Below are positions 6,944 to 38,900 of a DNA stretch of 64,000 bases, piece after piece. The notes beneath the pieces were generated by a model. That model worked only from the letters and a program-made list of their open reading frames with translations. It was not told the origin of the DNA and did not search any database. Source of the stretch: Syntrophomonas sp. DTU019 (GTDB lineage: Bacteria > Bacillota > Syntrophomonadia > Syntrophomonadales > Syntrophomonadaceae). The DNA is taken from assembly GCA_913757435.1 (NCBI GenBank), contig CAJYDM010000005.1:1-64000 (forward strand), in the 5' to 3' direction. Position numbers and translations under genes: made by a program. Each line of letters begins with the position of its first letter. Within the stretch, counting starts at the first letter, position 1.

Positions 6944-7018
<75 letters not shown>

Positions 7019-7029
7019 CCGCAAAGTGT

Positions 7030-7058: not shown

Positions 7059-7133
7059 GGAATACTTTAATTAGTTTTATTATTACCTTTGTGCCTCTGT
7101 TGTCATTTGGACTAATTACTATTATATGCACGG

Positions 7134-8817: not shown

Positions 8818-8933
8818 CCGGAACCGCCTGGCATTACAATTTAAACACTGGGGATATCCTCTTACCCGGTGTCTTATTTTTGCATCTTTAGTTACTGCGG
8901 GGAAATACTAAGCAAAAACCTCAGGAGGAAACC

Positions 8934-9698: not shown

Positions 9699-9727
9699 GT
9701 GCTTATCAGGGAATACGATGAACAACA

Positions 9728-9767
9728 AAGGGTTTGTTTCATTGCGCAAGCCGAGAAACAAACCCTT
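9728..9767. terminator. Stem-loop between the SDR gene and tRNA-Pro
   Basis: A perfect 13-bp inverted repeat (9728-9740 with 9755-9767) sits between two convergent genes and is likely a shared bidirectional terminator. Neither side has a long T-run. Confidence 0.6.
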
Positions 9768-9784
9768 AAGTATGTGCATAATAC

Positions 9785-9861
9785 TGGTCGGGGCGACAGG
9801 ATTTGAACCTGCGGCCTTCTGATCCCAAATCAGACGCGCTACCAAGCTGCGCCACGCCCCG
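9785..9861 (-). tRNA. tRNA-Pro(TGG)
   Basis: 77-nt cloverleaf with acceptor CGGGGCG/CGCCCCG, anticodon loop TTTGGGA giving anticodon TGG, T-loop GGTTCAAATCC and an encoded CCA. It stands alone on the minus strand. Confidence 0.96.
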
Positions 9862-10164
9862 AACTCTTATATCTTATCATCCCCCAGATGAAAGTGTCAA
9901 TTTTACTGCTGCGGCCAGAAACTTCACGTCTTCGTCGGAGAGGGCCAGAAAAGTTGTTTCGGACTCACATTAATCCATCATCACCCCTGTCGGTCCGCTT
10001 TCACAATCCGGTGGCAGGTTTTAGACGGCGCAGATCATTAATACCGTTTATGCACAGTATCGATGAAGGCGGCAGCAGTTACTTACTGACGCCGCCTGTC
10101 AATTGAAGCCCCCCCTCTTTATACCTCTTGGTGATGAACTGTTGTTATATAATGAAGCTCTTGC
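9862..10164. other. Intergenic region, nothing recognised
   Basis: About 300 bp between tRNA-Pro and the L,D-transpeptidase gene. A short open frame at 9888-10106 on the plus strand has no ribosome site and a low-complexity, unconvincing translation. No RNA structure is recognised. Confidence 0.4.
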
Positions 10165-11010: not shown

Positions 11011-11174
11011 ATATTCGATCACACTCCTCGCGAGCTTATTTAATACATGCTTATTTGTGACGAGCCGGACTGATGACAAATATAAAGCCCGGTTTTTGGG
11101 GGAATTTGACTTACAATTTTTGGAAGGTATTTGCTCGCTTTTGTGGAACTTAGCAGGGAAGGGGGTGGTATTGT

Positions 11175-22918: not shown

Positions 22919-22934
22919 TGGCATGGATTTTGCA
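22919..22934 (+). promoter_or_regulatory. Sigma-54 promoter of the DUF35-thiolase-ligase operon
   Basis: TGGCATGGATTTTGCA matches the -24/-12 pattern TGGCACG-N4-TTGCA, with exactly ten bases between the GG and GC dinucleotides. Predicted transcription start is near 22946, about 65 bp before the first gene. Confidence 0.8.
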
Positions 22935-23009
22935 ATCCATACATGTCAAGAGCTCTTAGAATGTGGTTACTTGGTTATCCGTGTAAACGTTAGAAAGGGA
23001 GAGACAAAA

Positions 23010-23438
23010 ATGGATGCAAAAAAACCTAGGGCAGCGGTCGATGGCCTGTTTACCATGGATCCGGAAGAACCCAGGCTGATTGGGGGGAAATGCAGTTCCT
23101 GCGGGTCTTACTTTTTCCCCAAATTTTATCAAACCCACAAGCCAACCTGCTCAAACCGAGGGGTTGAGGAAGTGCTGCTTAGCCGCAGAGGCACGTTGGA
23201 GAGTTTCACCGTTCAGCATTATCCCCCCCCACCCCCATTCGTTTCACCGAGGCCTTTCGTACCATACGGCTTGGGTTTAGTAGCCTTACCGGAAGGAATT
23301 AACATTATAGGCATAATGACTGGAATAGCCGTCGAAGATCTCAAAACAGGCATAGAGGTGGAACTGGTACTAGAAACACTCCACCAGGATGAAAAAGGAA
23401 ATGATCTTTTAAGCTGGAAGTTCAAGCCTGTTGACTAG
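23010..23438 (+). CDS. DUF35 OB-fold/zinc-ribbon acyl-CoA-associated protein
   Basis: Small partner protein of thiolase-like enzymes, 142 residues. The ATG at 23010 is preceded by AAAGGGAGA; earlier in-frame starts would overlap the sigma-54 promoter. An N-terminal rubredoxin-like zinc ribbon (Cys28-Ser-Ser-Cys31 ... Cys47-Ser-Asn-Arg50) is followed by an OB-fold (GTLESFTVQHYPPPPPFV, YGLGLVALPEGINIIGIMTG). The fourth zinc ligand, normally Cys, is Arg50 here. Family members pair with thiolases such as BbsA with BbsB in toluene degradation. The thiolase gene follows by 31 bp. Confidence 0.88.
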   Translation: MDAKKPRAAVDGLFTMDPEEPRLIGGKCSSCGSYFFPKFYQTHKPTCSNRGVEEVLLSRRGTLESFTVQHYPPPPPFVSPRPFVPYGLGLVALPEGINIIGIMTGIAVEDLKTGIEVELVLETLHQDEKGNDLLSWKFKPVD

Positions 23439-23469
23439 GTACGAATAGGTGAAAGGAAGGTCAAAGACA

Positions 23470-24651
23470 ATGAGAGATGTCGCAGTTATTGGAGTAGGTA
23501 TGCACCCCTGGGGCAAGTTCCCCAGGAAAAGCTTTGTTGATCTGGGTGTTGAAGCGATTATAAATGCCCTTAACGATGCCGGAATGCAATGGACAGATAT
23601 ACAAGCCATGGTTTCTGGATGCTTTATATGGGATGGAGTGGGAGGCCTTTTGTCCGGACATTCTATTGCGGCTGTAATGGGTGAAACCGGAATACCCATA
23701 ACCAATGTTTTTAATGTGTGCGCTACCGCTACCTCGACGTTTAGGGCAGCTTACCAGACAGTCGCCAGCGGCGAACAGGATATTTGTCTGGCGCTAGGTA
23801 CAGATATATCTCCGGCTGGTTTCTTACCTATAGTCGGAGGAGAGAACCCAGAAGATTGCGATTACCTGAGGTGGAAAATGCTGGGGATAACCAATCCAGG
23901 TTATTGGGCCTTGGAATGCCGACAACGGATGGAACGTTATGGCACCACTGAAGTTGATCTGGCCAGGGCCAAGGTGGCTTGCAGTAAGAACGGTGCCTTA
24001 AACCCTAATGCGCTTTATCGTAAGGTGTATACAGTGGATGAAGTACTGAACTCACCTATGGTAGCCGATCCTTTGCGGCTTCTGATGATCTGTGCCACCC
24101 GGGATGGAGCGGTAGCCACCATACTATGCAGCGCCGAGATAGCTAAAAGGTTTACTTCAAAGCCGGTAATGATAGCTGGGGTTGGTCTGGGAAGCGCCCT
24201 TTATGGCGATCCGACAGCACGCCTGGGCCTTTTAGCTGCTCCTCCGAAGACCGATGTTCCAATGCTTAGTGAGAGTTATATGAGTTCGCAGATGGCATAT
24301 CGTACCTCAGGTATTGGCCCGGAAGAAATGGATCTGGTTGAACTTCCCGACAATAGTTCGTGGCATTATTTACAGTATTTAGAGACTCTTGGTTTTTGTG
24401 GGCCAGGCGAGGCCGAACAATTACTGGCCAGCGGCGAAACGGAGCTTGCTGGCAAAATACCGGTTAATCCCAGTGGAGGGATGGCATGTTTTGGCGAAGC
24501 AGTATCAGCCCAGGGTCTACTGCAAATCCATGAAGTTGTTAAGCAGCTCCGAGGCGAATGTGGTGAAAGGCAGGTGCAAGGCGCAAAAGTAGGTATGGCT
24601 CAGACTTACGGGATGTTAGGCAACAGTGCCGCAGCAGTATTTAAGGTGTGA
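23470..24651 (+). CDS. Thiolase-like protein (SCP-x/lipid-transfer type)
   Basis: 393 residues, ATG with GAAAGGAAGG upstream. The thiolase fold is clear: nucleophile-position Cys84 (FNVCATATST), SGEQDICLALGTD and NPSGGMACFGEA near the C-terminus. The HPxGATG box that carries the general-base His in ordinary thiolases is replaced by GEAVSAQG, which has no His. Together with an adjacent DUF35 protein, this is the arrangement of BbsAB-type thiolases acting on unusual beta-keto acyl-CoAs. The substrate is unknown; the gene lies between DUF35 and an acyl-CoA ligase in a sigma-54-driven operon. Confidence 0.87.
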   Translation: MRDVAVIGVGMHPWGKFPRKSFVDLGVEAIINALNDAGMQWTDIQAMVSGCFIWDGVGGLLSGHSIAAVMGETGIPITNVFNVCATATSTFRAAYQTVASGEQDICLALGTDISPAGFLPIVGGENPEDCDYLRWKMLGITNPGYWALECRQRMERYGTTEVDLARAKVACSKNGALNPNALYRKVYTVDEVLNSPMVADPLRLLMICATRDGAVATILCSAEIAKRFTSKPVMIAGVGLGSALYGDPTARLGLLAAPPKTDVPMLSESYMSSQMAYRTSGIGPEEMDLVELPDNSSWHYLQYLETLGFCGPGEAEQLLASGETELAGKIPVNPSGGMACFGEAVSAQGLLQIHEVVKQLRGECGERQVQGAKVGMAQTYGMLGNSAAAVFKV

Positions 24652-24708
24652 TTTGGCGGGTACATCAATAATTACCAGTTAAGTTTATAATTAACGGAGG
24701 TGACCAGT

Positions 24709-26361
24709 ATGAAAAGACTCTACAACATTGATTTACCGAACTGGGAGAAGTATTTTGGCCCCCCGGAATCTCTGCCGGAAAAGGTCTATACCTTGCCTGA
24801 GTTATTATCCTATCCTTACAAGATCAACGCTGCAGAATACCTGGTGGGTAGATGGGCCAAAAAGAATCCTGACAAAGTGGCCATGTATTTTTACGATGAA
24901 AAGATCACCTATGGAGAATTCTATGCCAAAATCAACCGGGTGGGCAATGGTCTGAAAAGTCTAGGAGTAAAACAGTATGACCGAGTCATGATAATGGGCC
25001 ATAATCGACCCGAGTGGCTGATGAGCTTTTTTGGGATTTTAAAAATTGGTGCTATTCCGGTATTTGTGAATCACTTGGTAAAAAGGGAGGAACTTGCTTT
25101 CAGATGGGAAGATTCTGAGGCGGTGGCGATTATCTGCCATGTTCCCTGTTTGGAGGAAATTGAAAAAGCCAACACTGAGATGATTAAAATCGTCTACTGT
25201 GGCAATAACGAACCAGGAACCGTTTCATGGGAAGACCTCGTTGAGTCCCAAAGCGAAGAGTGCCAGCCCGCAGATACCTGCCTTGACAGTCTGTTCCGGA
25301 TAATTTATAGTTCTGGGACAACCGGCAATCCCAAGGGAGGAGCTACCACCATACTGGACAATCTGTGTGTTGCCGAGACTCATGGCAAACATACTCTGGG
25401 AATAACCGAAAATGATATCCTGGGAGGCCACCCTTTATTCAGTTTTGCCTTTGGGGTAGCCTGCTTTGTGCTTTATCCCTGGTATTTTGGCGCTGCTATC
25501 TCCATCACTGAAAGATTCCATCCTGAAGAAATGTTCGCCACCGTGAAAAAACACGGTGTCACTGTCCTGTTCTGTGTTCCTACCGCCTTTAATATTATGT
25601 TGGATTCCCCTCACGACCATGTGGATGATTTAAAAACTGTCCGCCTGTTCCAAAGCGCGGGCGAACCGTTGATGGCCAGTACTTGTAAAGAATGGAAGAG
25701 AAGATATGGCCGCCCTATCATCGATAGTATGGGCTCAGGTGACAATTGCTACTGGTTGTCGGCGTACGAGGGAATGCCCGAAGATAAAATTGGCTCGACC
25801 GGCAGAACCATTCCGGGTATTGAGAATATAGTAGTTGACGAGAACTTCCAGGAAGTGCCCAGGGGTACTGCCGGGGAACTGCTGGTCAGGGGTCCTTCTG
25901 GGCATCAGTTCTGGAAAAGACCTGATAAGCAGGCCACTGGAGTGCAAGATGGATGGAATCGGCCGGGAGTATTCGGTACTATGGATCAAGATGGATATTT
26001 CTGGTATCACAGCAGAACCGATGACATTATTGTAACCGCTGGATATAAAATTCCTTGCTTTGAAGTAGAATCCGCCATAAACAACTGTGAAGGTGTGCTT
26101 GAATCCGCATGTGTGCCCAGTCCGGATCCCGTCCGGGGTTCAGTAATTAAGGCCTTTGTGGTACTCAAGGACGGATACCAGCCCACAGAAGATATGAAAA
26201 TTAAGATTAAAGAGCATGTCAAAGGACTTATTGAGGATTATAAATATCCTAAGAAGATCGAGTTCATCCCCCAGGAGGAAATGCCTCGCACCAATACTGA
26301 TAAGATTGTTAGAAGCAAGTTGAGAGAACGTGAAGAGGCCCAGGTTACTGAAGCAAGTTAA
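24709..26361 (+). CDS. AMP-forming acyl-CoA ligase
   Basis: Activates a carboxylic acid to its CoA ester using ATP and releasing AMP and PPi. 550 residues; ATG with GGAGGTGACC upstream. The phosphate-binding loop IIYSSGTTGNPKGG spans about 198-211. Further adenylation motifs are SMGSGDNCYW, GYFWYHSRTDDII and the C-terminal catalytic-lysine segment PRTNTDKIVR, which has Asp where most have Gly. It resembles benzoate- and short-chain-acyl ligases, but substrate specificity cannot be assigned. It closes the DUF35-thiolase-ligase operon and precedes a strong hairpin. Confidence 0.9.
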   Translation: MKRLYNIDLPNWEKYFGPPESLPEKVYTLPELLSYPYKINAAEYLVGRWAKKNPDKVAMYFYDEKITYGEFYAKINRVGNGLKSLGVKQYDRVMIMGHNRPEWLMSFFGILKIGAIPVFVNHLVKREELAFRWEDSEAVAIICHVPCLEEIEKANTEMIKIVYCGNNEPGTVSWEDLVESQSEECQPADTCLDSLFRIIYSSGTTGNPKGGATTILDNLCVAETHGKHTLGITENDILGGHPLFSFAFGVACFVLYPWYFGAAISITERFHPEEMFATVKKHGVTVLFCVPTAFNIMLDSPHDHVDDLKTVRLFQSAGEPLMASTCKEWKRRYGRPIIDSMGSGDNCYWLSAYEGMPEDKIGSTGRTIPGIENIVVDENFQEVPRGTAGELLVRGPSGHQFWKRPDKQATGVQDGWNRPGVFGTMDQDGYFWYHSRTDDIIVTAGYKIPCFEVESAINNCEGVLESACVPSPDPVRGSVIKAFVVLKDGYQPTEDMKIKIKEHVKGLIEDYKYPKKIEFIPQEEMPRTNTDKIVRSKLREREEAQVTEAS

Positions 26362-26467: not shown

Positions 26468-27277
26468 ATGAAAGCGATTAAAGATTGGATACGCGATTAT
26501 GCATTAAAACTGGGGGCAGATGATGTCGGCTTTGCCAGCATCACCGATTACAACAGCCCGCAGTCTCCAGATATTCTAGGATTATTCCCCACCGCCAAGT
26601 CCCTTGTGGTTATGGCCTTCAAAGAAGCCGCACATTGCGTAAGTCCCTCCAATAGTATAGCTATGAATGGGCGATTGGAGATAACGGAATTTATCCGCTA
26701 TTGTAGTTTCAAGTTGACCAGATTTTTAGAAAGAGAGTTCCACATTCACGCCATGTCGGTACCGTCTTCGTACCCCTTGGATATGAATTCTACAGCTAAA
26801 GGATTAATTGGAGAGGTTTCCCTGCGGCATGCGGCATTAGCTGCTGGGTTGGGGAGTTTCGGCCGCCATAACCTGATTATTCATCCCCGTCTCGGAACTC
26901 AGGTAGTCTACCAGGCGGTTATCAATGAGCTGGATTTGCCGTCTGACCCACCTTTTACCGAGGATCTGTGCACCTATTGCGATGTTTGTGTAGAGAACTG
27001 CCCGGCGGGCGCTCTGGATATACCGGGAAAGACCGATGCTCTGAAATGTCTGCGTTATTCACAACCATACGGTATGGGGGGCTTAATGGCATTTGGCAGG
27101 AAGTTATTGGACAGCCCCACGGATACCCGTAAGAAGATGTTGACCAGCCCAGATCTGATGAAACTTTATCAAGCGCAAATGGTCGGGATGCATTATTATT
27201 GTTTCAAATGCTATACCTCGTGCCCTATCGGAAACGACAGCATTATATCTCCCATGGGTATAAATGGCAATAAATGA
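26468..27277 (+). CDS. QueG-like iron-sulfur protein
   Basis: 269 residues with ATG preceded by GGACGGAG. It has the SLRHAALAAGLGSFGRHNLI segment typical of the epoxyqueuosine-reductase/reductive-dehalogenase-like family, then a four-cysteine cluster CTYCDVCVENCP (about 164-175) and a second set around YYCFKCYTSCPIG. It is shorter than QueG (about 310-380 residues), so a queuosine role is doubtful. Located between the ligase operon and the sigma-54 activator, it may be an electron-transfer or cobamide-linked protein of the same pathway. Function is not established. Confidence 0.75.
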   Translation: MKAIKDWIRDYALKLGADDVGFASITDYNSPQSPDILGLFPTAKSLVVMAFKEAAHCVSPSNSIAMNGRLEITEFIRYCSFKLTRFLEREFHIHAMSVPSSYPLDMNSTAKGLIGEVSLRHAALAAGLGSFGRHNLIIHPRLGTQVVYQAVINELDLPSDPPFTEDLCTYCDVCVENCPAGALDIPGKTDALKCLRYSQPYGMGGLMAFGRKLLDSPTDTRKKMLTSPDLMKLYQAQMVGMHYYCFKCYTSCPIGNDSIISPMGINGNK

Positions 27278-27405
27278 GCTGACCGGCCATGTTATAATTA
27301 ATAGTAAATGGGCTTGTACTGCATCTCACAATTAAGGGGGTGGTTTTTTACATCAGACATAGAGAACGGATACCGGTTATGGAAGGGTTCAAGGAGGTGT
27401 GTGGC

Positions 27406-28848
27406 TTGACCGATTGTAATGCAAGAGATGGAAGATCGGATATTGAGTATGAGAAGTTGCTTTACCAATACCTTGACCAAAACAATATCTCCCATATTAA
27501 AGATTTACTCCAGATTTTCGATTATTCATATGATGGCATAGCCTTAAGCGATAAAAATGGAGTAGTTTTTTATGTAAACCAGGCTGTGGAAAGAATTACC
27601 GGAGTTGATAGAACCAAAATCATGGGAAAAAGCCCGCATGATTTTAAGAAAGTGGGCCCTTTCCTCCGAGCAGTGAAGGAAACGGAAAAGAGCAATATTG
27701 TTCATTCGGTACAGCAGTTTAAGACCGGACATATTTATCTGATTACCACTTTGCCATTTATTTTTAAGGGTGAACCATTATATTTTTCCAACTACCGTGA
27801 AATCAATGATTTAAATTATATTCAGGGCTCACTGTTAAGTAAGTTGGAAAAGAAAAAATATGGCTACCGGGAACAATTCCAGCATAATATAAACGTATTC
27901 GCGGACGATGAGATTATCATAAAAAGCCCGCAGATGATCAATATAATGAGGATCGTGGGCAAAATATGCAACACTGATGTCACGGTTAACATAACCGGGG
28001 AATCTGGTGTGGGCAAGGATGTGTTGGCCAGGCTTATTCATGATCTCAGTGACAGAAAAGATCAGCCTTTTATGGAAATAAACTGCAGTCTGATTCCAGA
28101 ACATCTTCTGGAGTCGGAATTATTTGGCTATACGGAGGGCTCATTTACCGGAGCCAAGAAGGCTGGCAAGCCCGGTTTATTTGAATTGGCTAACGGTGGC
28201 ACAGTGTTCTTGGATGAAATAGGGGATATACCCTACAACTTGCAGGTTAAGCTGCTTAAAGTTCTCCAAGACCAAGAAATCATGAGGATAGGCGGAACCA
28301 GCCCGGTGAAATTGGATCTGCGAATAATATGCGCCACCAACCAGGATCTGGAACAAAGAATCCGCGATGGGCGGTTCAGGGAAGATCTATTCTTTAGAAT
28401 AAACACCATGCCTATATATATACCCCCATTAAGGGAGAGACAGGAGGACATTCTTCATCTCGCCAACCTCTTTTTGCAGAAATTTAATAAGCAATACGGG
28501 ACCAGGCATGTCTTTTCTTCTGAGGTATGCGATTGTTTGGAAACTTATCACTGGCCGGGCAATATTCGAGAACTTAAAAGCCTCATCGAGAGATTGGTAT
28601 TAATAGCAGATGGCCCCAAAATCACAGTAAACGACCTTCCGGTTGCAGCCCAAAAGGGTCAGGGCAGCCAGGTACAACAGCAGAATATGACCAACTTAAA
28701 GGATATGCTGGATCAGTATGAAATGGATATTATCGCTAAAGCCGTTAATGAATACGGAGCTCGGAAAGCAGCCGATATGCTAGGGATAGACTACTCCACT
28801 CTTAAACGAAAAAGGCAAAAACTAAAAGTATCTAACGGCAATGAGTAA
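27406..28848 (+). CDS. Sigma-54-dependent transcriptional activator (PAS/AAA+/Fis)
   Basis: Enhancer-binding protein that opens sigma-54 promoters, 480 residues. The TTG at 27406 is chosen because AAGGAGG ends nine bases upstream; a GTG at 27340 has a poorer site. An N-terminal PAS sensor domain (IFDYSYDGIALSDKNGVVFY) replaces a receiver domain, so control is by a ligand or redox cue. The AAA+ domain has Walker A GESGVGKD, the sigma-54 contact loop GSFTGA (a variant of GAFTGA) and Walker B GGTVFLDEIGDI. A Fis-type HTH ends it (YGARKAADMLGIDYSTLKRK). It lies between two sigma-54-driven units and probably controls both. Confidence 0.93.
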   Translation: MTDCNARDGRSDIEYEKLLYQYLDQNNISHIKDLLQIFDYSYDGIALSDKNGVVFYVNQAVERITGVDRTKIMGKSPHDFKKVGPFLRAVKETEKSNIVHSVQQFKTGHIYLITTLPFIFKGEPLYFSNYREINDLNYIQGSLLSKLEKKKYGYREQFQHNINVFADDEIIIKSPQMINIMRIVGKICNTDVTVNITGESGVGKDVLARLIHDLSDRKDQPFMEINCSLIPEHLLESELFGYTEGSFTGAKKAGKPGLFELANGGTVFLDEIGDIPYNLQVKLLKVLQDQEIMRIGGTSPVKLDLRIICATNQDLEQRIRDGRFREDLFFRINTMPIYIPPLRERQEDILHLANLFLQKFNKQYGTRHVFSSEVCDCLETYHWPGNIRELKSLIERLVLIADGPKITVNDLPVAAQKGQGSQVQQQNMTNLKDMLDQYEMDIIAKAVNEYGARKAADMLGIDYSTLKRKRQKLKVSNGNE

Positions 28849-29141
28849 TTGGTCGGATGCTTACGACTCAGCCTGCAGCCTTTGATGATAAAGCGCCCGG
28901 GTGCAAAGATGCACCGAAAAATAGAATATATATCAGGAAATAGGTCTTTACATTGATGAACCTTAATGTTTGGGATAGGGTGCGTATATGCGCCCTATCC
29001 CATTCTTTGTTAAACAATAAATTCCTATAATTTAATTCCTGCAGGTATTTGAAGATTCTAAGTATGCCCAAAAAGGCTATTTATCGGGGCCAGTTTTTCA
29101 TCCTTCAATCAGTAGGGTATGAGAAACTGGTCTATATATTT
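28849..29141. other. Intergenic control region upstream of the Mo-enzyme operon
   Basis: No gene is seen. It holds a small palindrome GGTGCA-AAGA-TGCACC (28900-28915), about 240 bp upstream of the sigma-54 promoter and so a candidate activator site, and the terminator at 28971-29011. Confidence 0.5.
28971..29011 (+). terminator. Terminator after the sigma-54 activator gene
   Basis: 13-bp stem TGGGATAGGGTGC (28971-28983) with GCGCCCTATCCCA (28990-29002), one G-U pair, followed by TTCTTTGTT. Confidence 0.75.
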
Positions 29142-29157
29142 TGGCACATATGTTGCA
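29142..29157 (+). promoter_or_regulatory. Sigma-54 promoter of the molybdoenzyme operon
   Basis: TTGGCACATATGTTGC matches the -24/-12 consensus: TGGCAC, exactly ten bases between GG and GC, then TTGCA. It gives a leader of about 120 nt before the first gene. Confidence 0.85.
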
Positions 29158-29286: not shown

Positions 29287-31431
29287 ATGGCCACGCGCAA
29301 AGAGCATATTACGTTTTGCCATATTTGTGGCAATCACTGTGCTCTAACTGCTGTCGTTGAAAACGGTAAGCTTGTTGAAGTCAAGGCTGGTGCCGGGTAT
29401 CCCGCCAATATGTGCTCCATTCAGAAAGGGGCTGACCATTTAATTGGCACCGTTAACAGTCCAGACCGTCTTACCAAGCCACTGAGAAGAGTCGGCGAAA
29501 AGGGGTCCGGCAAATGGGAGGAAATATCCTGGGATGAGGCCCTGGATACTATTGCTGAAAAGCTAATTGATGTAAAAGAAAAATTTGGGCCTGAGTATGT
29601 GATCATGGTGCTGGGAGAACCCAAAGGCATGGAATTCCCCTTTGCTCAGCGGTTTGCCACCGCTTTCGGTACTCCCAACACCATTACCCCGGGTAATTAT
29701 TGCGGAGTGCAGTCCACCGAAGCGTTGCGGTATACCTTCGGGTCCAGATATATTCGCGCCAGGATGGAAGGCAACCCCGGACTGGTCACCATTTGGGGCA
29801 GCAACATCGCTCATACTGGCGGAACCTTCTCTCAGATCGGGCGCAATGACCTCAACCGTCTTATAGTTGGCGGCGATACCAAACTGGTTGTGATTGATCC
29901 CAAGAACATCGAATTATGGCCGGAAAAGGGCATGCACGCAGCTGATGCCGATTATTGGCTAAGACCCAGGCCTAGTAGTGATGGAATACTAGCCATGGGA
30001 TTTATCAAGGTGATCATCGATGAAAAGCTTTACGACCCTGATTACATCGAGAAATGGACAGTTGGCTTTGAGGAATTACGCCAGGAAGTCGCGACCTTTA
30101 CATTGGAAGAAGTTGAGAAACTCACCTGGGTTCCTAAAAAAGACATTCAGGAAGTAGCCCGGCTGATGGCAACGGTTAAACCGGCATTGATTGGCAATGG
30201 CAACTCCTTGGAAGGCAACATAGAAGCTTTTCAAATGGCCCGGGCCTTAGCGGTGTTAAGAGGGCTTATTGGCAGCGTCAATACACCTTATGGCGGTCTG
30301 GTGGATCAAATCCCTCCGAATTATTATCCACCGGGTGCATTTATGATGAGCGACTTAAAGGAAAAACTCAAAGAGTATCCGCGCACACCGGAGAGAACCA
30401 TTGGTGGTTCCGATTTTTCCATAGCTGCCAAATTCGGGTACGTACCCACCCAGGCTCTAGTAGACGCTTTGCTGACCGAAAAGCCTTATCTTCCCAAGGT
30501 CGGCCTGACATTTGTTAATAACCCCCTGCTCACCTACGCCGACTCCATCGCAACCGAAGAGGCCTTTAAGAAGTTCGAGCTTTTGGTGGTTTCCGAGCTG
30601 TTCCATACCGCTACTACCAGAATTGCTGATATTGTCCTTCCCGCAGCGGTTCTAAGCGAATACGATGGCATTGCTTACTGGCCGGCCTGGTTTGGAAATC
30701 TTCGGGCCAATGTTAAAGTAGTTGATCCTCCCGGAGAAGCCTGGCCGGATCATAAAATGGTCAATGAACTGGCGAAGCGGGTCGGTTTGGGACAATATTT
30801 CTGGGAAGACGAAATCATGGCCATGGATTATATGCTGGAACCTTTGGGAATGACCTGGGAGTACTTCCGTGATAATGTTAGGTATTTGCATGGGGAAAGC
30901 CTATACGATCCAGAAAAAGTAATTGGCTATAACACCCGCTCTGGCAAAGTGCAGTTATACTGCGAGGAACTGGCCAAATCCAAGGTCGATCCGTTGCCCC
31001 GATTTAAAGACCTGGTTAAACCGCTTATGGGCCCATGTGAAATAACTGAGTCATATCCATTCATAATGACCAACTACAAGAGCGAGGTCTTCATGTTGTC
31101 AGGATACCGTGGGGTCAAGGAATTGAGGATAAAATCGCCGACCCCTACAGTATATATGAATCCCGATGCTGCCAAAGAACAGGGTTTTAAAGATGGCGAC
31201 TGGATATATATCGAAACCTTCAAGGGACGGATAAGGCAGAAGTTGGCCCTTCAGCCCGGCATGCATCCCAAGGTTGTCAATGTTGAATTCGGGTGGGGTG
31301 ACTATGGCTATGAAGATGCCAATAATAATCTTCTCACCGAGTACTCTCGTCCCTGGGACACTGCCACTGGTTGTTTGACTTTAAGGGGACTGGCCTGCAA
31401 AGTGTACCTGGCACCAGATGAGGGGGAGTAG
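29287..31431 (+). CDS. Molybdopterin (bis-MGD) oxidoreductase catalytic subunit
   Basis: Mo- or W-dependent oxidoreductase of the DMSO-reductase superfamily, 714 residues, ATG with AAGGAGGCG upstream. The N-terminal [4Fe-4S] motif is Cys11-x2-Cys14-x3-Cys18 ... Cys43. The probable metal ligand is Cys139 in PGNYCGVQS, as in Cys-type formate dehydrogenases and acetylene hydratase. WGSNIAHTGG, the MGD-binding ADIVLPAAVLSEYDG segment and a C-terminal molydopterin-dinucleotide domain follow. No Tat signal is seen, so the enzyme is cytoplasmic. It is co-transcribed with two electron-transfer subunits. It is not clearly a formate dehydrogenase; the substrate is unknown. Confidence 0.9.
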   Translation: MATRKEHITFCHICGNHCALTAVVENGKLVEVKAGAGYPANMCSIQKGADHLIGTVNSPDRLTKPLRRVGEKGSGKWEEISWDEALDTIAEKLIDVKEKFGPEYVIMVLGEPKGMEFPFAQRFATAFGTPNTITPGNYCGVQSTEALRYTFGSRYIRARMEGNPGLVTIWGSNIAHTGGTFSQIGRNDLNRLIVGGDTKLVVIDPKNIELWPEKGMHAADADYWLRPRPSSDGILAMGFIKVIIDEKLYDPDYIEKWTVGFEELRQEVATFTLEEVEKLTWVPKKDIQEVARLMATVKPALIGNGNSLEGNIEAFQMARALAVLRGLIGSVNTPYGGLVDQIPPNYYPPGAFMMSDLKEKLKEYPRTPERTIGGSDFSIAAKFGYVPTQALVDALLTEKPYLPKVGLTFVNNPLLTYADSIATEEAFKKFELLVVSELFHTATTRIADIVLPAAVLSEYDGIAYWPAWFGNLRANVKVVDPPGEAWPDHKMVNELAKRVGLGQYFWEDEIMAMDYMLEPLGMTWEYFRDNVRYLHGESLYDPEKVIGYNTRSGKVQLYCEELAKSKVDPLPRFKDLVKPLMGPCEITESYPFIMTNYKSEVFMLSGYRGVKELRIKSPTPTVYMNPDAAKEQGFKDGDWIYIETFKGRIRQKLALQPGMHPKVVNVEFGWGDYGYEDANNNLLTEYSRPWDTATGCLTLRGLACKVYLAPDEGE

Positions 31432-31451
31432 ACAGATGAGGGGGAGTAGAC
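31416..31451 (+). repeat. 18-bp perfect tandem duplication at a gene junction
   Basis: AGATGAGGGGGAGTAGAC occurs at 31416-31433 and again at 31434-31451. The first copy supplies the stop codon of the molybdoenzyme gene; the second repeats that stop in frame and provides the GAGGGGGA ribosome site of the next gene, whose ATG begins at 31452. Confidence 0.95.
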
Positions 31452-32477
31452 ATGGATAAAGTCATTAGAAAGCACGATTTTCTCAAACTACTTTTTGCTG
31501 ATCTCAAAGAAAAATATCATATTATCGGCCCGACCCGTAAGGGAGGGGGCACATCAACCTATGCCTACCCCACCTTCGACGACATCGATCGGGCGATCGA
31601 TTTGGAAATGGGTTATACCACTACCATGGGCTCGCTAAAGAAATTGTATTTTCCTGATAACGAAGCCCTTTATCAGTATCAAAGGGTGGGCACCGAGGTG
31701 GAACTTGTAAACCTGCGCCAGGCTTGGGACAAAGAAAAGGTGATACTTGGCCTGCACCCCTGTGACATCTCCGCCCTGGCGGTTTTGGACAAGGTATTTG
31801 GCCTTGATCAGTATTACACCGACAAACGAAACAAAAGCCTCATAATCGGGTTGACCTGTGATTCGGCATGCTCGCGGGGATTTTGCAGCAGTGTCAACTC
31901 CGGACCTGATGCCCAAAGTGGTTTTGATTTGCTGCTAACTGACATCGGGGACGGCTACTTCTGCAGATCGGGTTCAGAGCGGGGCGAAAGACTGTTAAGC
32001 TTGGAATATTTTAAGGCCGCTGCTCCCGAAGACATCCAGGCTAGAGCTAAAAAGCTGCAAAAGACTGAGGATGAGCTAAAGGGGCGTTTCTCGCTGGATG
32101 AAGTAACATCGGCGTTAGCAGAGAAGTACAATGATTCGTTGTGGGATGAATTTGCCGATAAATGCTATACTTGCGGCGCTTGTAATATGGTCTGTCCCAC
32201 CTGTACTTGCTTCACCATCAATGAGAAAGCCAAGGGCGATCACAGCCAGGGTAAAAGGGTAGTGGTATGGGATTCATGCCATTTTGAAAGATTTGCCCAA
32301 ATGGCCGGCAATTTTAATCTAAGAGAGGAAAAGAAGTCCAGGTTCAAGCACCGCATTTATGACAAATTCCATTTCAGCCTGGTGCGACAAGGCAAGGTAT
32401 CATGCGTGGGCTGCGGAAGATGCGCTGACTTCTGCCCATCTCACATTGATATCCGTGAAGCTATGAGCAGACTGTAG
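31452..32477 (+). CDS. Iron-sulfur electron-transfer subunit (sulfhydrogenase beta/AsrA-like)
   Basis: 341 residues. The N-terminal domain (LGLHPCDISALAVLDKVFG, LTCDSACSRGFCSSVNSG) and two C-terminal [4Fe-4S] motifs (Cys238-x2-Cys241-x2-Cys244-x3-Cys248, and Cys318-x2-Cys321-x2-Cys324-x3-Cys328-Pro) are those of the AsrA/HydB family. Members pass electrons between a flavoprotein partner and a catalytic subunit. Here it sits between a molybdoenzyme gene and an AsrB/HydG-like gene, so it probably wires them together in one soluble complex. Confidence 0.9.
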   Translation: MDKVIRKHDFLKLLFADLKEKYHIIGPTRKGGGTSTYAYPTFDDIDRAIDLEMGYTTTMGSLKKLYFPDNEALYQYQRVGTEVELVNLRQAWDKEKVILGLHPCDISALAVLDKVFGLDQYYTDKRNKSLIIGLTCDSACSRGFCSSVNSGPDAQSGFDLLLTDIGDGYFCRSGSERGERLLSLEYFKAAAPEDIQARAKKLQKTEDELKGRFSLDEVTSALAEKYNDSLWDEFADKCYTCGACNMVCPTCTCFTINEKAKGDHSQGKRVVVWDSCHFERFAQMAGNFNLREEKKSRFKHRIYDKFHFSLVRQGKVSCVGCGRCADFCPSHIDIREAMSRL

Positions 32478-32489
32478 GAGGGAATTACA

Positions 32490-33320
32490 TTGGAAAATAT
32501 TTATTTGCCTGAAATGGCTGTGGTACAGGAGATTAAAGAGGAAACTCCTCAGATCAGAACCCTGACGATTAAAATGGCAAAAAAGCAAGCCAGGAGTGTC
32601 CTTCCGGGTCAGTTTATGGAATTGACTATTTTCGGTTCCGGTGAATTTCCGGTAAGCGTTGCTGCGGTGCTCAATCCGGAAGCAACCCTCATTCAGACCA
32701 CCATTCAACAGGTGGGGAAAGCCACCCGGGAAACCGCCCGGCTGACCCCGGGATCTAAAATTGGCATAAGGGGACCGTTCGGTAACGGATACCCATTAGA
32801 AGCCATGCAAGGCCGGAATATCTGCCTGGTTACCGGCGGGGTTGGATTAGCTGCCGCCCGGCAGCTTATCAACTACATCGTCGCCAATAGAAATCGATTC
32901 GGGGAGGTCATATTGCTTCACGGCGCCAGGACCCCCGGCGACCTGATCTATAAGGACTTTCTTTTCAATGCTGAGGATGCCCACCGAAATAATATCAGCA
33001 TAAGTGTTACTGTAGATCAGCCAGACCAGAATTGGAATCAGACCATTGGACCAGTAACTGAACTATTTAAAAAAGTCAGGGTTGAGGCGGATAATACTGT
33101 AGCCATAGTCTGCGGGCCGGGCAAAATGATGAATAATGTCTGTGCAGGCCTGGCGCAAATGGGCTTACCTGATGATCAAATCTTGCTGGCCCTGGAAAGC
33201 AGAATGCATTGTGGCATGGGAGTATGCGGTCATTGTGCGGTGGGCTATAAAAAGGTCTGTGTAGATGGCCCGATATTCGCCTACGGAGAGGTCAAGAACA
33301 ACTTGGAGAAGTTGATTTAG
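32490..33320 (+). CDS. FAD/NAD(P)-binding subunit (sulfhydrogenase gamma/AsrB-like)
   Basis: Ferredoxin-NADP reductase-type flavoprotein, 276 residues, TTG start with GTAGGAGGG upstream. A FAD-binding barrel (LPGQFMELTIFG), nucleotide-binding domain (CLVTGGVGLAAARQLI and VAIVCGPGKMM) and C-terminal [2Fe-2S] motif (CGMGVCGHC ... Cys) are all present. It would couple NAD(P)H to the neighbouring iron-sulfur subunit and the molybdoenzyme. It ends the three-gene unit, just before a perfect hairpin. Confidence 0.92.
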   Translation: MENIYLPEMAVVQEIKEETPQIRTLTIKMAKKQARSVLPGQFMELTIFGSGEFPVSVAAVLNPEATLIQTTIQQVGKATRETARLTPGSKIGIRGPFGNGYPLEAMQGRNICLVTGGVGLAAARQLINYIVANRNRFGEVILLHGARTPGDLIYKDFLFNAEDAHRNNISISVTVDQPDQNWNQTIGPVTELFKKVRVEADNTVAIVCGPGKMMNNVCAGLAQMGLPDDQILLALESRMHCGMGVCGHCAVGYKKVCVDGPIFAYGEVKNNLEKLI

Positions 33321-33357: not shown

Positions 33358-33460
33358 TTAAGTTGGCCCCACCATCCTGTAGGAAGATGGCTGTAAAAGG
33401 GGGGGTAGAGCTAGAAGCAGGTTAGTCATCTAGTTGGTATTATTAAGGGAGGGATATCAT

Positions 33461-34867
33461 TTGTTTAAGGATTCTAAGATAACAGGTACAATTGTAGTCA
33501 CATTGATTGCCATTGTCATCGGACTCCTAAAACCCTTTACCGGACTTGGCCCTCAAGGACACTATATCCTGGCTTCGGTAGTTGTCGCCCTGGGCTTATG
33601 GATTTTTAAACCTGGGGGAGTCCCCTTTATGGCTGGATCTACCTTCCTGGTGGCCAGCGGCCTCTTATTCGGACTTAAGTATACGACTGTTGTATCAGGC
33701 TTTGTTAATTCTGCCCTCTGGATATTAATCCCCGCCCTATATTTTGGTTTTGTATTACAGAAAACTGGCCTGGGCAAAAGGATTGCCTACCTGGTATTAA
33801 AGAGCTTTAAACCCAGTTGGATGAGCATAGCCTTGAGCTGGTTCATTATCGGTGTGGTGCTTTCGGCTCTCACTCCATCCACGACGGTTAGGGTGGCTAT
33901 CGTAATGCCCATTGCTCTGGGGGTCATTGATGCCTGCAAGTTGGAGTATCGTTCCAAAGGCTCTGCTTATATCGCCATAATTGCTTTTGCAATGTGCCTC
34001 ATACCAGGTTCCGGCTGGCTGACAGGAGGTCTTGCTGGCCCTATTCTGCTCGGATTTACTCCTGCAGATCTTAAACACTTAGTTAACTTCAACTCCTGGT
34101 TTCAAGTATTATTCGTACCCTGGTTTATAGCAACCGTGGTCTTTGCCATCCTGGTCTATGTTTTAATGAAGCCCAAGGAAGCTATTGGGATAACCAGCGA
34201 CACTTTTAAACAGCAATATGCGCAATTAGGCCCCATTACTAAGCCTGAGATCATTACCGCATTGGTTTTAACAGTGACATTAATATTGTTTGCCACAGAA
34301 AAATTCACGGGAATACCCTCAGCATCAACAGCTTTGTTAGCCCTAGCCATCCTGCTTTTGTGTGGCATAATAAAGGCACCCGAAGTCGGCACTGGAGCCA
34401 ACTGGGACATAATCGTATTTTTCGGGGTAACCATAAGCTTAGTGACCATCTTTGCCGAGGCCAAGGTGGCTGCCTGGATTAATCCTATTCTACAGCCCAC
34501 CCTGTTTGGTCTGGCTCCGTCGCCGCTTCTGTTCATGCTGGTAATCACCCTGGGGATATTGCTAATACGTTTTATTGACGTTCCCTGGGGGTTATCGACT
34601 ATTGCCTTGACTATTGCATTAATGGTTCCTCTGTTCAATAACTTTGGCATTCATCCGCTGGTGATTATGTTTGCTTATCTGGCAGGGGTTAACTTCTTCT
34701 TTCTATCCTATCAACAGCCCTGGATGCTAATGGCGGAAGGGATTATATCCGGCAAAGGTTGGGCTTCCAACCATGTTTTAATTGCCGGCTTGTGCTATGT
34801 GGCGGCAGTGGTAATTGCGTTGATAGTGAGCATTCCCTACTGGCGGATGCTTGGCGTTATCAACTGA
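33461..34867 (+). CDS. DASS/SLC13-type carboxylate transporter
   Basis: Polytopic membrane protein, 468 residues, TTG start with AGGGAGG seven bases upstream. About 12 hydrophobic helices are visible, with the duplicated Ser/Thr-rich loops of the divalent-anion:sodium symporter family (LSALTPSTTVRVAIVMPIA, where the first Thr/Ser cluster lies, and the DIIVFFGVTISL and FIDVPWGLSTIALTIALMVP segments). Such transporters import di- or monocarboxylates or sulfate with Na+. Its place next to CoA-activating genes suggests it imports the pathway's acid. Confidence 0.85.
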   Translation: MFKDSKITGTIVVTLIAIVIGLLKPFTGLGPQGHYILASVVVALGLWIFKPGGVPFMAGSTFLVASGLLFGLKYTTVVSGFVNSALWILIPALYFGFVLQKTGLGKRIAYLVLKSFKPSWMSIALSWFIIGVVLSALTPSTTVRVAIVMPIALGVIDACKLEYRSKGSAYIAIIAFAMCLIPGSGWLTGGLAGPILLGFTPADLKHLVNFNSWFQVLFVPWFIATVVFAILVYVLMKPKEAIGITSDTFKQQYAQLGPITKPEIITALVLTVTLILFATEKFTGIPSASTALLALAILLLCGIIKAPEVGTGANWDIIVFFGVTISLVTIFAEAKVAAWINPILQPTLFGLAPSPLLFMLVITLGILLIRFIDVPWGLSTIALTIALMVPLFNNFGIHPLVIMFAYLAGVNFFFLSYQQPWMLMAEGIISGKGWASNHVLIAGLCYVAAVVIALIVSIPYWRMLGVIN

Positions 34868-35007: not shown

Positions 35008-36351
35008 ATGAATTTTGCCCAGGAATATACGAATAAATTGAGGAATGCCCAAGAAGCCGTAAAAATTGTTAAGTCAGGTGATAATGTTCATTATGGAGAA
35101 TTTGTAATGAACTCACAGCTACTTGATGCTGCTCTTGCGGATCGCAAAGAAGACTTATGTAATGTTATAGTACGAACCAACTGCTGTCCTTTTGTACCGC
35201 AAGTTGTACAGGTGGATCCCAAAAGAGAGCATTTTACCTTAATTGACACTCACTTTAGCAGCGTCAGCCGTCATTTACACGATAATGACTTGTGTTATTA
35301 CGAGCCATTAACCTATCATGAAGTTCCTTCCTGGTATTACCGCGGCTATGTGCCGGTTGATGTAGCCATGATTAAGGTAGGCCCCATGGATGAACACGGT
35401 TTTTTCAATCTCGGCACTGCCAATTCGTATACTACGGCTTTTGTCTCCGCAGCTAAAATTGTCATAGCCGAAGTAAACAATTCCATACCCCGTTGTTTGG
35501 GCGGCAATAAGGAAGCTTTGCACATCTCGGAAATTGACTATCTGGTAGAAGGAGATAGTGAGCCATTAATTCAATTGCCGCAGGTACCAATCAACGACAT
35601 TGATCAAAAGGTTGCTGAGCTTGTCGTCAATGCCATCCCTAATGGCGGCTGCCTGCAATTAGGGATTGGAGCTATGCCCAATGCTATTGGAGCTATGATA
35701 GCCAGGTCAGATTTAAAAGACCTGGGTGTGCATACCGAAATGCTAGTAGACTCCTACGTTGACATGTATGAGGCGGGGCGCATTACTGGTAAGCTCAAAC
35801 AAATTGACAAGGGGAAGATGGTCTATACTTTCGCTATGGGGACCGATAAACTATACAATTTTCTTGATAACAATCCGGTATGTGCCAGTTACCCGGTAGA
35901 ATACACTAACGACCCCTATGTTATTGCGCAGAACCAGCGGGTCATGGCCATTAACAATGCTATCGAAGTTGACCTTTATGGTCAGGTTTGTTCGGAATCA
36001 TCCGGCATTCGTCAGATTACTGGAACCGGTGGACAGCTTGACTATATATTCGGTTCATACAAGTCCGAGGCGGGAAAGGGTTTTATCTGCCTGAGTTCGA
36101 GCATCATCGGCAAGAACGGTGAAATGATCTCCAGAATTGTTCCCACCTTGCCTACCGGCGCGACCGTCACCGTACCCCGTAGTATTACTTACTACGTGGT
36201 CACTGAATACGGTATGGTCAATCTAAAAGGTAAATCTACCTATCAAAGAGCTGAAGCCCTTATCAGTATTGCCCATCCGCAGTTTAGGGATGAATTAATA
36301 AAACGTGCCGCAGAAATGAAAATATGGCGGCGGAGTAACAAAATAGCATAG
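35008..36351 (+). CDS. Acetyl-CoA hydrolase/CoA-transferase family protein
   Basis: Family I CoA-transferase resembling butyryl-CoA:acetate or 4-hydroxybutyrate CoA-transferase, 447 residues. The ATG is preceded by AAAGGAGCGG. The probable catalytic Glu lies in GVHTEMLVDSYVDMYE, and the glycine-rich C-terminal CoA-site pattern is GTGGQLDYIFGSYKSEAGKG. QLGIGAMPNAIG is also typical. It would swap CoA between the pathway acid and acetate, sparing ATP compared with the AMP-forming ligase. The acyl specificity cannot be assigned. The pyrophosphatase gene starts 98 bp downstream with no visible terminator between. Confidence 0.9.
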   Translation: MNFAQEYTNKLRNAQEAVKIVKSGDNVHYGEFVMNSQLLDAALADRKEDLCNVIVRTNCCPFVPQVVQVDPKREHFTLIDTHFSSVSRHLHDNDLCYYEPLTYHEVPSWYYRGYVPVDVAMIKVGPMDEHGFFNLGTANSYTTAFVSAAKIVIAEVNNSIPRCLGGNKEALHISEIDYLVEGDSEPLIQLPQVPINDIDQKVAELVVNAIPNGGCLQLGIGAMPNAIGAMIARSDLKDLGVHTEMLVDSYVDMYEAGRITGKLKQIDKGKMVYTFAMGTDKLYNFLDNNPVCASYPVEYTNDPYVIAQNQRVMAINNAIEVDLYGQVCSESSGIRQITGTGGQLDYIFGSYKSEAGKGFICLSSSIIGKNGEMISRIVPTLPTGATVTVPRSITYYVVTEYGMVNLKGKSTYQRAEALISIAHPQFRDELIKRAAEMKIWRRSNKIA

Positions 36352-36449
36352 TGGTTTATTATCACGCCACAACTCATTACCTAAATATTAGATGTTGCGC
36401 CTTATTAAGGCCAGTAATACGCTCTTCATTAGAAAGAAGGTTTGAAAAA

Positions 36450-38900
36450 GTGCACGGTAATCTAACCCAAACAGTAAAACAATTATTCCTTACGGGCTTT
36501 TTGAGCCTGGTCGCAGTATTGCTGGTGCCAGTCATGGCCCTAGCCAGTGAAGCCGACCTGATCCTGCCAGAATTCGCAGCCAACCATCACAACTTGCTGG
36601 TTTATGGCATACTTATCTGCGTTTTAGGTATGGCCTTCGGCTACTATCAATTCGTCAAAGTCAAAAAGCTTAATGCCCATCAGTCCATGCTCGATGTGGC
36701 TAGCATCATCTATGAGACCTGCAAGACCTACCTTTTGCAGCAGGGCAAACTACTTTTCATACTGTTCCTGTTCATCGCCTTCTGCATAGCCTTCTATTTC
36801 GGCTATCTGGGCGAGATGCCCCTCGGTTCAGTGCTGATAATCTTAAGTTGGACGGTTATAGGCATCTTAGGTTCGTACAGTGTATCCTGGTACGGCATTC
36901 GTATGAACACCCTGGCCAACAGCCGAACCGCCTTTTCCTCTTTGGAGAGGAAACCGCTTAAAATTTTGAACATAGCTATGGATGCCGGTATGAGCATCGG
37001 GGTACTCTTGGTATGCGTAGAATTGATCATGATGCTGATTATCCTCTTGTGGGTTCCCAAAGACCTGGCCGGAGCCAGCCTGATAGGCTTTGCCATCGGT
37101 GAATCACTGGGGGCCAGCGCCTTGCGTATCGCCGGGGGCATATTCACCAAGATCGCTGACATCGGCTCAGACCTGATGAAGATCGTCTTCGGCATCAAAG
37201 AAGACGACCCCCGAAATCCCGGCGTTATCGCCGACTGCACCGGAGACAATGCCGGTGACAGCGTAGGACCGACAGCCGACGGCTTCGAGACCTACGGGGT
37301 AACCGGTGTGGCCCTGGTAACCTTCATCGTGCTGGCGGTGCAACCGGCCCTGGCAGCAACCCTGATCGCCTGGATATTCATCCTGCGCGTGTTGATGATA
37401 ATCACCTCCATAACTGCTTTCTATATCAACCGGGCCTTCAGCCAGAGCCGCTTTGGCTCTAAAGACGACTTCGACTTTGAACAGCCCTTGGGCAGCCTGG
37501 TATGGATCACCTCCATACTGTCCATCGCAGCTACCTTCGTAGCCAGCTACTTCCTGTTAGGCCCGAATTCAGGTGTTCCCGAAGAATTGTCACAGCTGTG
37601 GGTGGTGCTATCTGCCATCATCAGCATAGGCACCCTGGGAGCAGCCTTGATCCCCGAATTCACCAAGATATTCACCAGCCCCAACTCCAGCCATGTGGCT
37701 GAAGTAGTAAAAGCCTCCCGTGAGGGCGGGCCGTCTTTAAACATCCTCTCCGGACTGGTAGCTGGTAATTTCAGTGCCTTCTGGATTGGTATGGTATTCT
37801 TCGCTATGATGTTTGCAGCTTATTATGCCAGTGGATTTGGTTTGAACAATATAATGATCTATCCCTCCATCTTCGCCTTCGGTCTGGTAGCCTTCGGTAT
37901 GTTGGGGATGGGGCCGGTCACCATCGCCGTTGACAGCTACGGCCCGGTTACTGACAATGCCCAGTCGATCTATGAACTGTCCCTGATCGAGGAAATCCAA
38001 GATGTAGACAAAGAGATTGAGAGCAAATTTGGATTCAAACCCGACTTTGAGAAAGCCAAGCATTACCTGGAAGCCAATGACGGAGCCGGCAACACCTTTA
38101 AAGCCACTGCCAAACCGGTGTTGATCGGTACTGCCGTAGTCGGTGCCACCACCATGATCTTCTCCTTGATATTGGTCATCAAGAACGTATTAGGGGTAGA
38201 ACCGGAACAGATTCTGACCTTACTCAACCCCTTCACCATCTTCGGCTTTATTGCCGGCGGATGTATTATCTACTGGTTCACCGGCGCCTCCACCCAGGCG
38301 GTCACCACCGGGGCTTATCGGGCTGTGGAATACATCAAGCAGAACATCCGTTTAGATGAAGACGCTGATCAGAAGGCTTCCATAGAGAAATCCAAAGAAG
38401 TCGTCAAGATCTGCACTCAGTATGCCCAGCAGGGCATGTTCAACATCTTCATCGCCATTTTCTCCTTCACCATCGCCTTCGCCTGCTTGGCAGCGCCGCG
38501 GGCAGGTGAGAACGGCAACTTTGCGGTATCGCTGTTCGTGTCCTATCTGATTTCCATCGCCATATTCGGCCTGTTCCAGGCGGTATTCATGGCCAATGCG
38601 GGCGGATGCTGGGACAACGCCAAAAAGGTAGTGGAAGTTGACCTGCAGGAAAAAGGCACCCCCTTGCATGAAGCCACCGTGGTAGGGGACACTGTGGGCG
38701 ACCCCTTTAAAGACACCTCCTCAGTGGCCATGAACCCGATCATCAAATTCACCACCCTGTTCGGACTCTTAGCCATGGAGATCGCCATCACCGAAGCCTT
38801 CAGGGATATCGCTCCTTCAGTAGGCCTGGTCTTCCTGTTAGTGGCGTTATTCTTCGTGTGGCGTTCTTTTTATGGGATGAGAATACCGGTCAAGGAATAA
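36450..38900 (+). CDS. hppA: Membrane-bound ion-translocating pyrophosphatase (divergent)
   Basis: Hydrolyses PPi and pumps H+ (or Na+) across the membrane, 816 residues versus about 650-770 for most. GTG start with AGAAGG upstream. About 16 membrane helices. Substrate-binding Asp-rich segments are kept (ADIGSDLMK, KEDDPRNPGVIAD, GDNAGDSVG, GPVTDNAQSIYEL, NAGGCWDNAKKVVE, GDTVGDPFKDTSSVAMN) but differ from the usual wording, placing it in a divergent subgroup. GNTFKATAK has the Lys that marks K+-independent pumps, although the following signature Thr is Ala. An extra N-terminal hydrophobic segment ends in ALASEAD. Adjacent adk suggests recycling of ligase-derived PPi and AMP. Confidence 0.92.
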   Translation: MHGNLTQTVKQLFLTGFLSLVAVLLVPVMALASEADLILPEFAANHHNLLVYGILICVLGMAFGYYQFVKVKKLNAHQSMLDVASIIYETCKTYLLQQGKLLFILFLFIAFCIAFYFGYLGEMPLGSVLIILSWTVIGILGSYSVSWYGIRMNTLANSRTAFSSLERKPLKILNIAMDAGMSIGVLLVCVELIMMLIILLWVPKDLAGASLIGFAIGESLGASALRIAGGIFTKIADIGSDLMKIVFGIKEDDPRNPGVIADCTGDNAGDSVGPTADGFETYGVTGVALVTFIVLAVQPALAATLIAWIFILRVLMIITSITAFYINRAFSQSRFGSKDDFDFEQPLGSLVWITSILSIAATFVASYFLLGPNSGVPEELSQLWVVLSAIISIGTLGAALIPEFTKIFTSPNSSHVAEVVKASREGGPSLNILSGLVAGNFSAFWIGMVFFAMMFAAYYASGFGLNNIMIYPSIFAFGLVAFGMLGMGPVTIAVDSYGPVTDNAQSIYELSLIEEIQDVDKEIESKFGFKPDFEKAKHYLEANDGAGNTFKATAKPVLIGTAVVGATTMIFSLILVIKNVLGVEPEQILTLLNPFTIFGFIAGGCIIYWFTGASTQAVTTGAYRAVEYIKQNIRLDEDADQKASIEKSKEVVKICTQYAQQGMFNIFIAIFSFTIAFACLAAPRAGENGNFAVSLFVSYLISIAIFGLFQAVFMANAGGCWDNAKKVVEVDLQEKGTPLHEATVVGDTVGDPFKDTSSVAMNPIIKFTTLFGLLAMEIAITEAFRDIAPSVGLVFLLVALFFVWRSFYGMRIPVKE

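Follow-up and report, generated by a model that had tools for sequence, protein, structure and literature searches.

Enzymes of the DMSO reductase family that are linked to pyridine nucleotides are few and comprise formate dehydrogenases and assimilatory nitrate reductases. A DMSO-reductase-family operon with an AsrB-like flavoprotein has been described in Clostridium ljungdahlii (PMC5640608), and from Thermococcus onnurineus a tungsten formate dehydrogenase (FDH) complex has been purified that contains Fe-S proteins and an NAD(P)-binding subunit (PMC8965080). Acetylene hydratase, a further member of the family, needs its residue Asp13 (PMC12096430). The locus analysed here lies in a 64,000-nucleotide stretch of Syntrophomonas DNA (the window), which lies on contig C5 of a 3.2-Mb genome. 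A sequence-only reading of this DNA had identified a molybdoenzyme gene followed by two genes for sulfhydrogenase-type electron-transfer subunits, and the open reading frame (ORF) list, Pfam and alignments bear out both the coordinates and the families. All three ORFs, which together span 29287-33320, are complete and lie on the + strand:

29287..31431, + strand, catalytic subunit, 714 aa: cytoplasmic bis-MGD (DMSO-reductase family) oxidoreductase with one [4Fe-4S] cluster (Pfam, alignment, fold, tree)
31452..32477, + strand, AsrA/HydB-like subunit, 341 aa, with two [4Fe-4S] clusters (Pfam, NCBIfam, 9nez alignment)
32490..33320, + strand, AsrB/HydG-like subunit, 276 aa: FAD, NAD(P) site and C-terminal [2Fe-2S] (Pfam, NCBIfam, 9nez alignment)

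Genes for a DASS symporter and a CoA-transferase follow on the same strand, and the successive intervals between the five genes are 20, 12, 113 and 140 bases. Gene order and homology predict that the products of the first three genes form one cytoplasmic complex. The ORFs inspected from 21.4 to 46.7 kb yielded no hydrogenase or sulfite reductase gene, in agreement with the earlier statement that the locus carries neither a hydrogenase nor a siroheme subunit. Elsewhere in the window, the − strand encodes a Type I restriction-modification system (HsdR, HsdS, HsdM; 146-6149).

The catalytic subunit belongs to the DMSO-reductase (bis-MGD) family by its domains (Molybdopterin PF00384, 131 bits; Molydop_binding PF01568, 56 bits), by a complete [4Fe-4S] motif C11-x2-C14-x3-C18...C43, by its fold and by Cys139. 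This cysteine, which had been proposed to ligate the metal, aligns at the metal-ligand position, occupied by Cys in 104 of the 105 aligned family members. The sequence carries no twin-arginine leader. By PDB sequence search, its best match is acetylene hydratase (263 bits), compared to 153 bits for FdhF and 85-98 bits for FdsA-type NAD-FDHs, and the predicted model (pLDDT 82.7) is also closest to acetylene hydratase (TM 0.88, versus 0.74-0.78 for formate dehydrogenases). The top-scoring NCBIfam model is thiosulfate reductase PhsA at 257 bits (cut-off 694), and TIGR01591 Fdh-alpha scores 244 bits (cut-off 666).

Two trees, both quick searches with SH-aLRT support only, place the catalytic subunit in the acetylene hydratase / catechol dehydroxylase superclade. 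In the 105-row tree, it falls in a 75-row clade with acetylene hydratase and Gordonibacter/Eggerthellaceae proteins (SH-aLRT 98), outside the Gordonibacter/Eggerthellaceae clade itself but inside the same superclade; the second tree supports the superclade placement with a value of 96, and the inner branches are less certain. The Mo enzyme of Syntrophomonas locus L036 is identical to that of family member G021. The phylogeny against formate dehydrogenases that the sequence-only reading had called for rejects an FDH grouping. The penalty for holding the window protein with five formate dehydrogenases, of which two are selenocysteine FDHs (Sec-FDHs) next to AsrAB fusions, is 171 log units (AU p 5e-60); FdsA-type NAD-FDHs, absent from this tree, were compared by the bit scores given above. 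Furthermore, where FDH has an active-site (Se)Cys-His and Arg333, the window protein has Cys139-Gly140 and no Arg at the Arg333 position. An FDH identity was rejected on the tree and on the missing His and Arg.

Among the 105 aligned sequences, a glycine after the ligand cysteine occurs only in the window protein and in its closest relative, from genome G171; most of the others have Tyr, His, Phe or Trp at this position. Where most homologues carry the pocket motif C-[YHFW]-x-P-R, the window protein reads C-G-V-Q-S, with no P-R. The position of Asp13 of acetylene hydratase is occupied by Gly15 in the window protein and by Ala in G171, which separates the window protein from acetylene hydratase proper. 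By Gly140, the lack of P-R and the lack of a His behind the second cluster Cys, the pocket also departs from that of the catechol dehydroxylases, which counts against the reductase reading favoured below. With Gly140 in place and both the FDH His/Arg pair and Asp13 missing, the pocket is thus unlike those of the reference enzymes compared. A clade of Syntrophomonadaceae Mo-enzyme paralogues (L108-L112, L115-L120, L123, L124), which includes the copy at G000:C1:2045-4123 in the window's own genome, displays the cluster motif C-x2-M-D-H-G-G-C, in which Met replaces the second cluster Cys and is followed by Asp-His; its [4Fe-4S] cluster may have a non-Cys ligand. Several of these paralogues lie close to a sigma-54 regulator gene.

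The second protein of the operon matches Pfam Fer4_22 and the third NAD_binding_1 and DHODB_Fe-S_bind. Both align over most of their length to the β and γ subunits of Pyrococcus sulfhydrogenase I (PDB 9nez) with the cluster cysteines kept, and comparison with PyrK as well as with 9nez chains B and C identifies the nucleotide sites and cluster cysteines of an NAD(P)/FAD/[2Fe-2S] plus two-[4Fe-4S] module. The labels AsrA/HydB-like and AsrB/HydG-like given to them earlier hold at the family level but not as NCBIfam equivalog assignments, all scores being under the curated cut-offs: ShyB 186, HydB 184 and AsrA 140 bits for the AsrA/HydB-like protein, and PRK08345 196, AsrB 182 and ShyC 163 bits for the AsrB/HydG-like one. 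By score against cut-off, the pair is neither AsrA/AsrB (140/323 and 182/289 bits, the inspected ORFs having yielded no siroheme gene) nor sulfhydrogenase HydB/HydG (184/750 and 156/650 bits, these ORFs having yielded no NiFe genes). Alignments and trees do support the soluble chain proposed by the sequence-only reading, which would lead from NAD(P) through flavin, [2Fe-2S], two [4Fe-4S] and one further [4Fe-4S] cluster to Mo/W in a non-FDH catalytic subunit. Targeted searches recovered one further AsrAB-like pair in the genome, beside Hdr-like genes on another contig. This set (L125, G000:C2:440001-460000, positions 4522-11514) is a probable Flx/Hdr-type NADH complex.

The frequency of the pairing was examined in regions taken around nearly every AsrA homologue listed for 398 phylum genomes with E <= 1e-50. 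In the 76 regions counted (one place in G259 was entered twice), the partner within 5 kb is HdrA in 42, a NiFe large subunit in 19 and a DMSO-reductase-family enzyme in two; the remaining 13 have none, a count that is inflated because six of them had no AsrA ORF left after the ORF filter. Both Mo/W cases are Sec-FDHs adjoining a fused AsrA-AsrB protein. The genes concerned, each next to a single fusion gene, are found at L233 (G192) 3059-7116 and L241 (G136) 4699-8652, and apparently encode an NAD(P)-linked FDH that differs in type from FdsABG. Other AsrA-AsrB fusions (L167, L168, L171, L172, L203, L204, L206-L208, L210, L221), several of which adjoin NiFe hydrogenase subunits, lie apart from the FDH-linked ones in the tree.

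In the AsrA+AsrB tree, likewise a quick search, which did not include a genuine AsrABC pair, the window pair is on the NiFe-hydrogenase side (SH-aLRT 97), on a long branch (1.72) and with support of 87 inside that side, whereas the FDH-linked pairs group with the Hdr-linked ones. This separation suggests that recruitment took place independently at least twice. No close orthologue with an adjoining AsrAB was found in 63 class-level genomes, in the 398 phylum genomes, in a plasmid collection or among the 80 loci listed in a contig scan that sampled relatives; other phyla were covered unevenly. The uniqueness implied for the pairing does not stand, given the two Sec-FDH regions and the published C. 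ljungdahlii and T. onnurineus cases: the architecture is already known, and the catalytic partner is new. More precisely, what is new, as judged from sequence, is the combination of a non-FDH partner with an AsrAB module that groups on the hydrogenase side.

The region 5′ of the catalytic gene contains the following elements:

27340..28848, + strand, PAS-domain sigma-54-dependent activator, PrdR-like (Pfam Sigma54_activat, NCBIfam)
28900..28915, no strand assigned, palindrome GGTGCA-AAGA-TGCACC, candidate upstream activator site (seen in sequence)
28971..29002, + strand, strong intrinsic terminator with a 14-bp stem, probable end of the upstream transcript
29090..29130, no strand assigned, inverted repeat with 12-nt arms (92%) directly 5′ of the −24 element, candidate regulator site (sequence)
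29142..29157, + strand, sigma-54 type promoter TGGCACATATGTTGCA, about 130 bases 5′ of the catalytic gene (strict −24/−12 motif scan)

The match at 29142 is the sole strict −24/−12 match in 64 kb. Shuffling expects 0.64 matches per window and, by arithmetic, about 0.004 in the 438-base gap that holds it. Together with the Sigma54_activat gene at 27340, it marks the operon as probably sigma-54-controlled, and the upstream transcript probably ends at the 28971-29002 terminator. Conservation of such a promoter before relatives was considered and rejected: 16 of 17 scanned regions have no match, and the sole loose one (G171, L113) is no better than background (5/154).

The operon and its flanks carry further genes, several of a catabolic character:

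22923..23438, + strand, ChsH2/BbsA-like OB-fold protein, probable thiolase partner (sequence search)
23449..24651, + strand, thiolase of the BbsB/SCP2-like kind (NCBIfam and follow-up search)
24700..26361, + strand, AMP-forming CoA ligase, benzoate-CoA-ligase-like (NCBIfam; an orthologue, 51% identical, occurs solely in the Mo-enzyme cluster of G171)
26468..27277, + strand, QueG-like ferredoxin-domain Fe-S protein (Pfam, NCBIfam)
33434..34867, + strand, DASS-family sodium/anion symporter, predicted to take up an organic or inorganic anion (Pfam, NCBIfam)
35008..36351, + strand, butyryl-CoA:acetate CoA-transferase-like protein (NCBIfam 573 bits, under the equivalog cut-off)
36351..38900, + strand, membrane pyrophosphatase, true start probably near 36447

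The pyrophosphatase is one of two copies in the genome, and an adenylate kinase gene also lies 3′ of the CoA-transferase; recycling of PPi and AMP beside the AMP-forming ligase may plausibly be provided for in this way. In two congeners, a CoA-transferase homologue (55% identical) is found just upstream of a 36% Mo-enzyme paralogue. Among the 398 phylum genomes, only one other, G171, has a Mo-enzyme relative above 45% (it is 46% identical), and the same genome is the only other one with a CoA-ligase relative at 51%. Both are in one cluster:

L113 759-18916 (G171): CoA ligase, HGD-D, CCG Fe-S protein, Mo enzyme, thiolases, Amidohydro_2 and pyrophosphatase

This cluster, in which genes with no Pfam match were named by eye, further holds a BenE benzoate-type transporter, MobA, a 3-hydroxyacyl-CoA dehydrogenase and a crotonase, and is a candidate uncharacterised aromatic-acid pathway. 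Its BenE-type gene (L113 14295-17188) is apparently split by an IS110-like transposase insertion. AsrAB is absent from the cluster, where a CCG Fe-S protein adjoins the Mo enzyme instead, so the electron partner is not conserved and appears to differ between the two lineages.

The neighbourhood common to the window and G171 over this large distance is the strongest functional clue. We conclude from it that the enzyme has its place in organic-acid/CoA-thioester catabolism and is most likely a reductase dependent on NAD(P)H; the neighbouring genes indicate that an imported organic acid, perhaps an aromatic one, is broken down. That the complex is an NAD(P)H-dependent reductase of such an acid, handled as its CoA thioester, has in our estimate an even chance of being right; the sequence supports the cofactor chain, and we infer substrate and direction. 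NAD(P)H would reduce FAD in the AsrB/HydG-like subunit, and electrons would travel singly along the clusters to the Mo or W that Cys139 ligates. The metal would then reduce the organic substrate, most likely by removal of an oxygen function or reduction of an unsaturated or aromatic bond, much as the related catechol dehydroxylases do. An organic anion imported by the DASS symporter of the operon is the probable substrate and is probably handled as a CoA thioester, with a CoA-transferase in the operon and the CoA ligase, OB-fold/thiolase pair and pyrophosphatase alongside. The adjacent sigma-54 activator would probably turn the operon on in the presence of the substrate, and in a syntroph the proposed reaction would additionally consume NAD(P)H.

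The same complex could be oxidative, with Mo/W adding water-derived oxygen to the substrate or dehydrogenating it and electrons passing to NAD(P)+. AsrB/HydG-type modules run in both directions in hydrogenases, and bis-MGD enzymes of other clades hydroxylate hydrocarbons; direction is fixed by no result of our analysis. Most hydroxylations, however, are poorly served by NAD(P)+ as acceptor, and the nearest characterised redox enzymes in the tree are reductive dehydroxylases (PMC7028382), which makes oxidation unlikely. The CoA-ester catabolic genes around both the window enzyme and its nearest relative also weigh against an NAD(P)H-dependent reductase of an S, N or metalloid oxyanion (thiosulfate, polysulfide, nitrate, selenate), as does the position of the Psr and Nap references outside its clade. 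We regard such a reductase as improbable, even though PhsA, far under its cut-off, is the top NCBIfam model and the DASS symporter, from the DASS/Na_sulph_symp family to which sulfate symporters belong, could serve as importer of an inorganic anion.

Acetylene hydratase is the nearest solved structure and is active only when reduced (PMC12096430), which would suit a non-redox hydratase whose AsrAB module merely holds the metal reduced and active. With the catalytic Asp13 replaced by Gly15, and a dedicated multi-cluster NAD(P)H chain being excessive for mere priming, we consider this very improbable. An NAD(P)-linked formate dehydrogenase or CO2 reductase is scarcely tenable: the Fdh-alpha score and the AsrAB fusions next to Sec-FDHs in two genomes are outweighed by the rejected FDH clade, by the missing active-site His and Arg and by the position of the window AsrAB on the hydrogenase side of the tree, apart from the FDH-linked modules.

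For the reductase of a CoA-linked organic acid, an aromatic substrate deserves separate comment. No benzoyl-CoA reductase was recognised in the genome by targeted queries. The single full-length HGD-D protein adjoins an activator-ATPase-type gene and is not in a Bcr-like cluster (the remaining HGD-D matches are weak or incomplete), and AFOR here is a genuine aldehyde oxidoreductase (835 bits, versus 231 for BamB). The classical benzoyl-CoA pathway was rejected for this genome on these grounds, and aromatic ring metabolism is possible but unproven. It is distinctly unlikely that the enzyme represents a class of its own, in which Mo/W reductases dependent on NAD(P)H act on an aromatic or alicyclic acid or its CoA thioester in syntrophs with no recognised benzoyl-CoA reductases; if it does, anaerobic ring metabolism would have an entry step not described before, and the Gly140 pocket would be the signature of that step. 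More generally, an NAD(P)H-driven, soluble, three-subunit enzyme of this superclade could be assayed with no artificial dyes and would reveal use of Mo/W chemistry beyond formate by syntrophs, and the gene neighbourhood leaves a small set of organic acids as candidate substrates.

Acetylene hydratase of Pelobacter acetylenicus (PDB 2e7z), like the window enzyme, has bis-MGD, one [4Fe-4S] cluster and a Cys ligand; the two are 27% identical in the fold alignment, the window enzyme does not have Asp13 and, unlike acetylene hydratase, its operon carries an NAD(P)H electron module. The catechol dehydroxylases of Gordonibacter and Eggerthella belong to the same superclade, as judged by Gordonibacter/Eggerthellaceae homologues and not by the named enzymes (PMC7028382). 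The E. lenta enzymes, which are exported, work with a 4Fe-4S ferredoxin and with a membrane anchor (PMC7028382), from which the window enzyme differs, as it does in having C-G-V-Q-S where most homologues have C-[YHFW]-x-P-R.

The Sec-FDHs with fused AsrAB (G192, G136) and Thermococcus Fdh3 (PMC8965080) likewise pair a soluble enzyme of the DMSO reductase family with an NAD(P)/flavin/Fe-S module, but there the catalytic subunit is a formate dehydrogenase, and in G192 and G136 AsrA and AsrB are fused and come from another branch of the tree than the window pair. CLJU_RS12535-12555 of C. ljungdahlii (PMC5640608), likened here by description only, also joins a DMSO-reductase-family enzyme to an AsrB-like flavoprotein but has five genes. 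The closest solved relatives of both electron-transfer subunits are HydBG of the NADP(H)-linked NiFe hydrogenase / sulfhydrogenase (9nez); compared to these, the window set has no NiFe subunits, its branch is long and the catalytic partner has been replaced.
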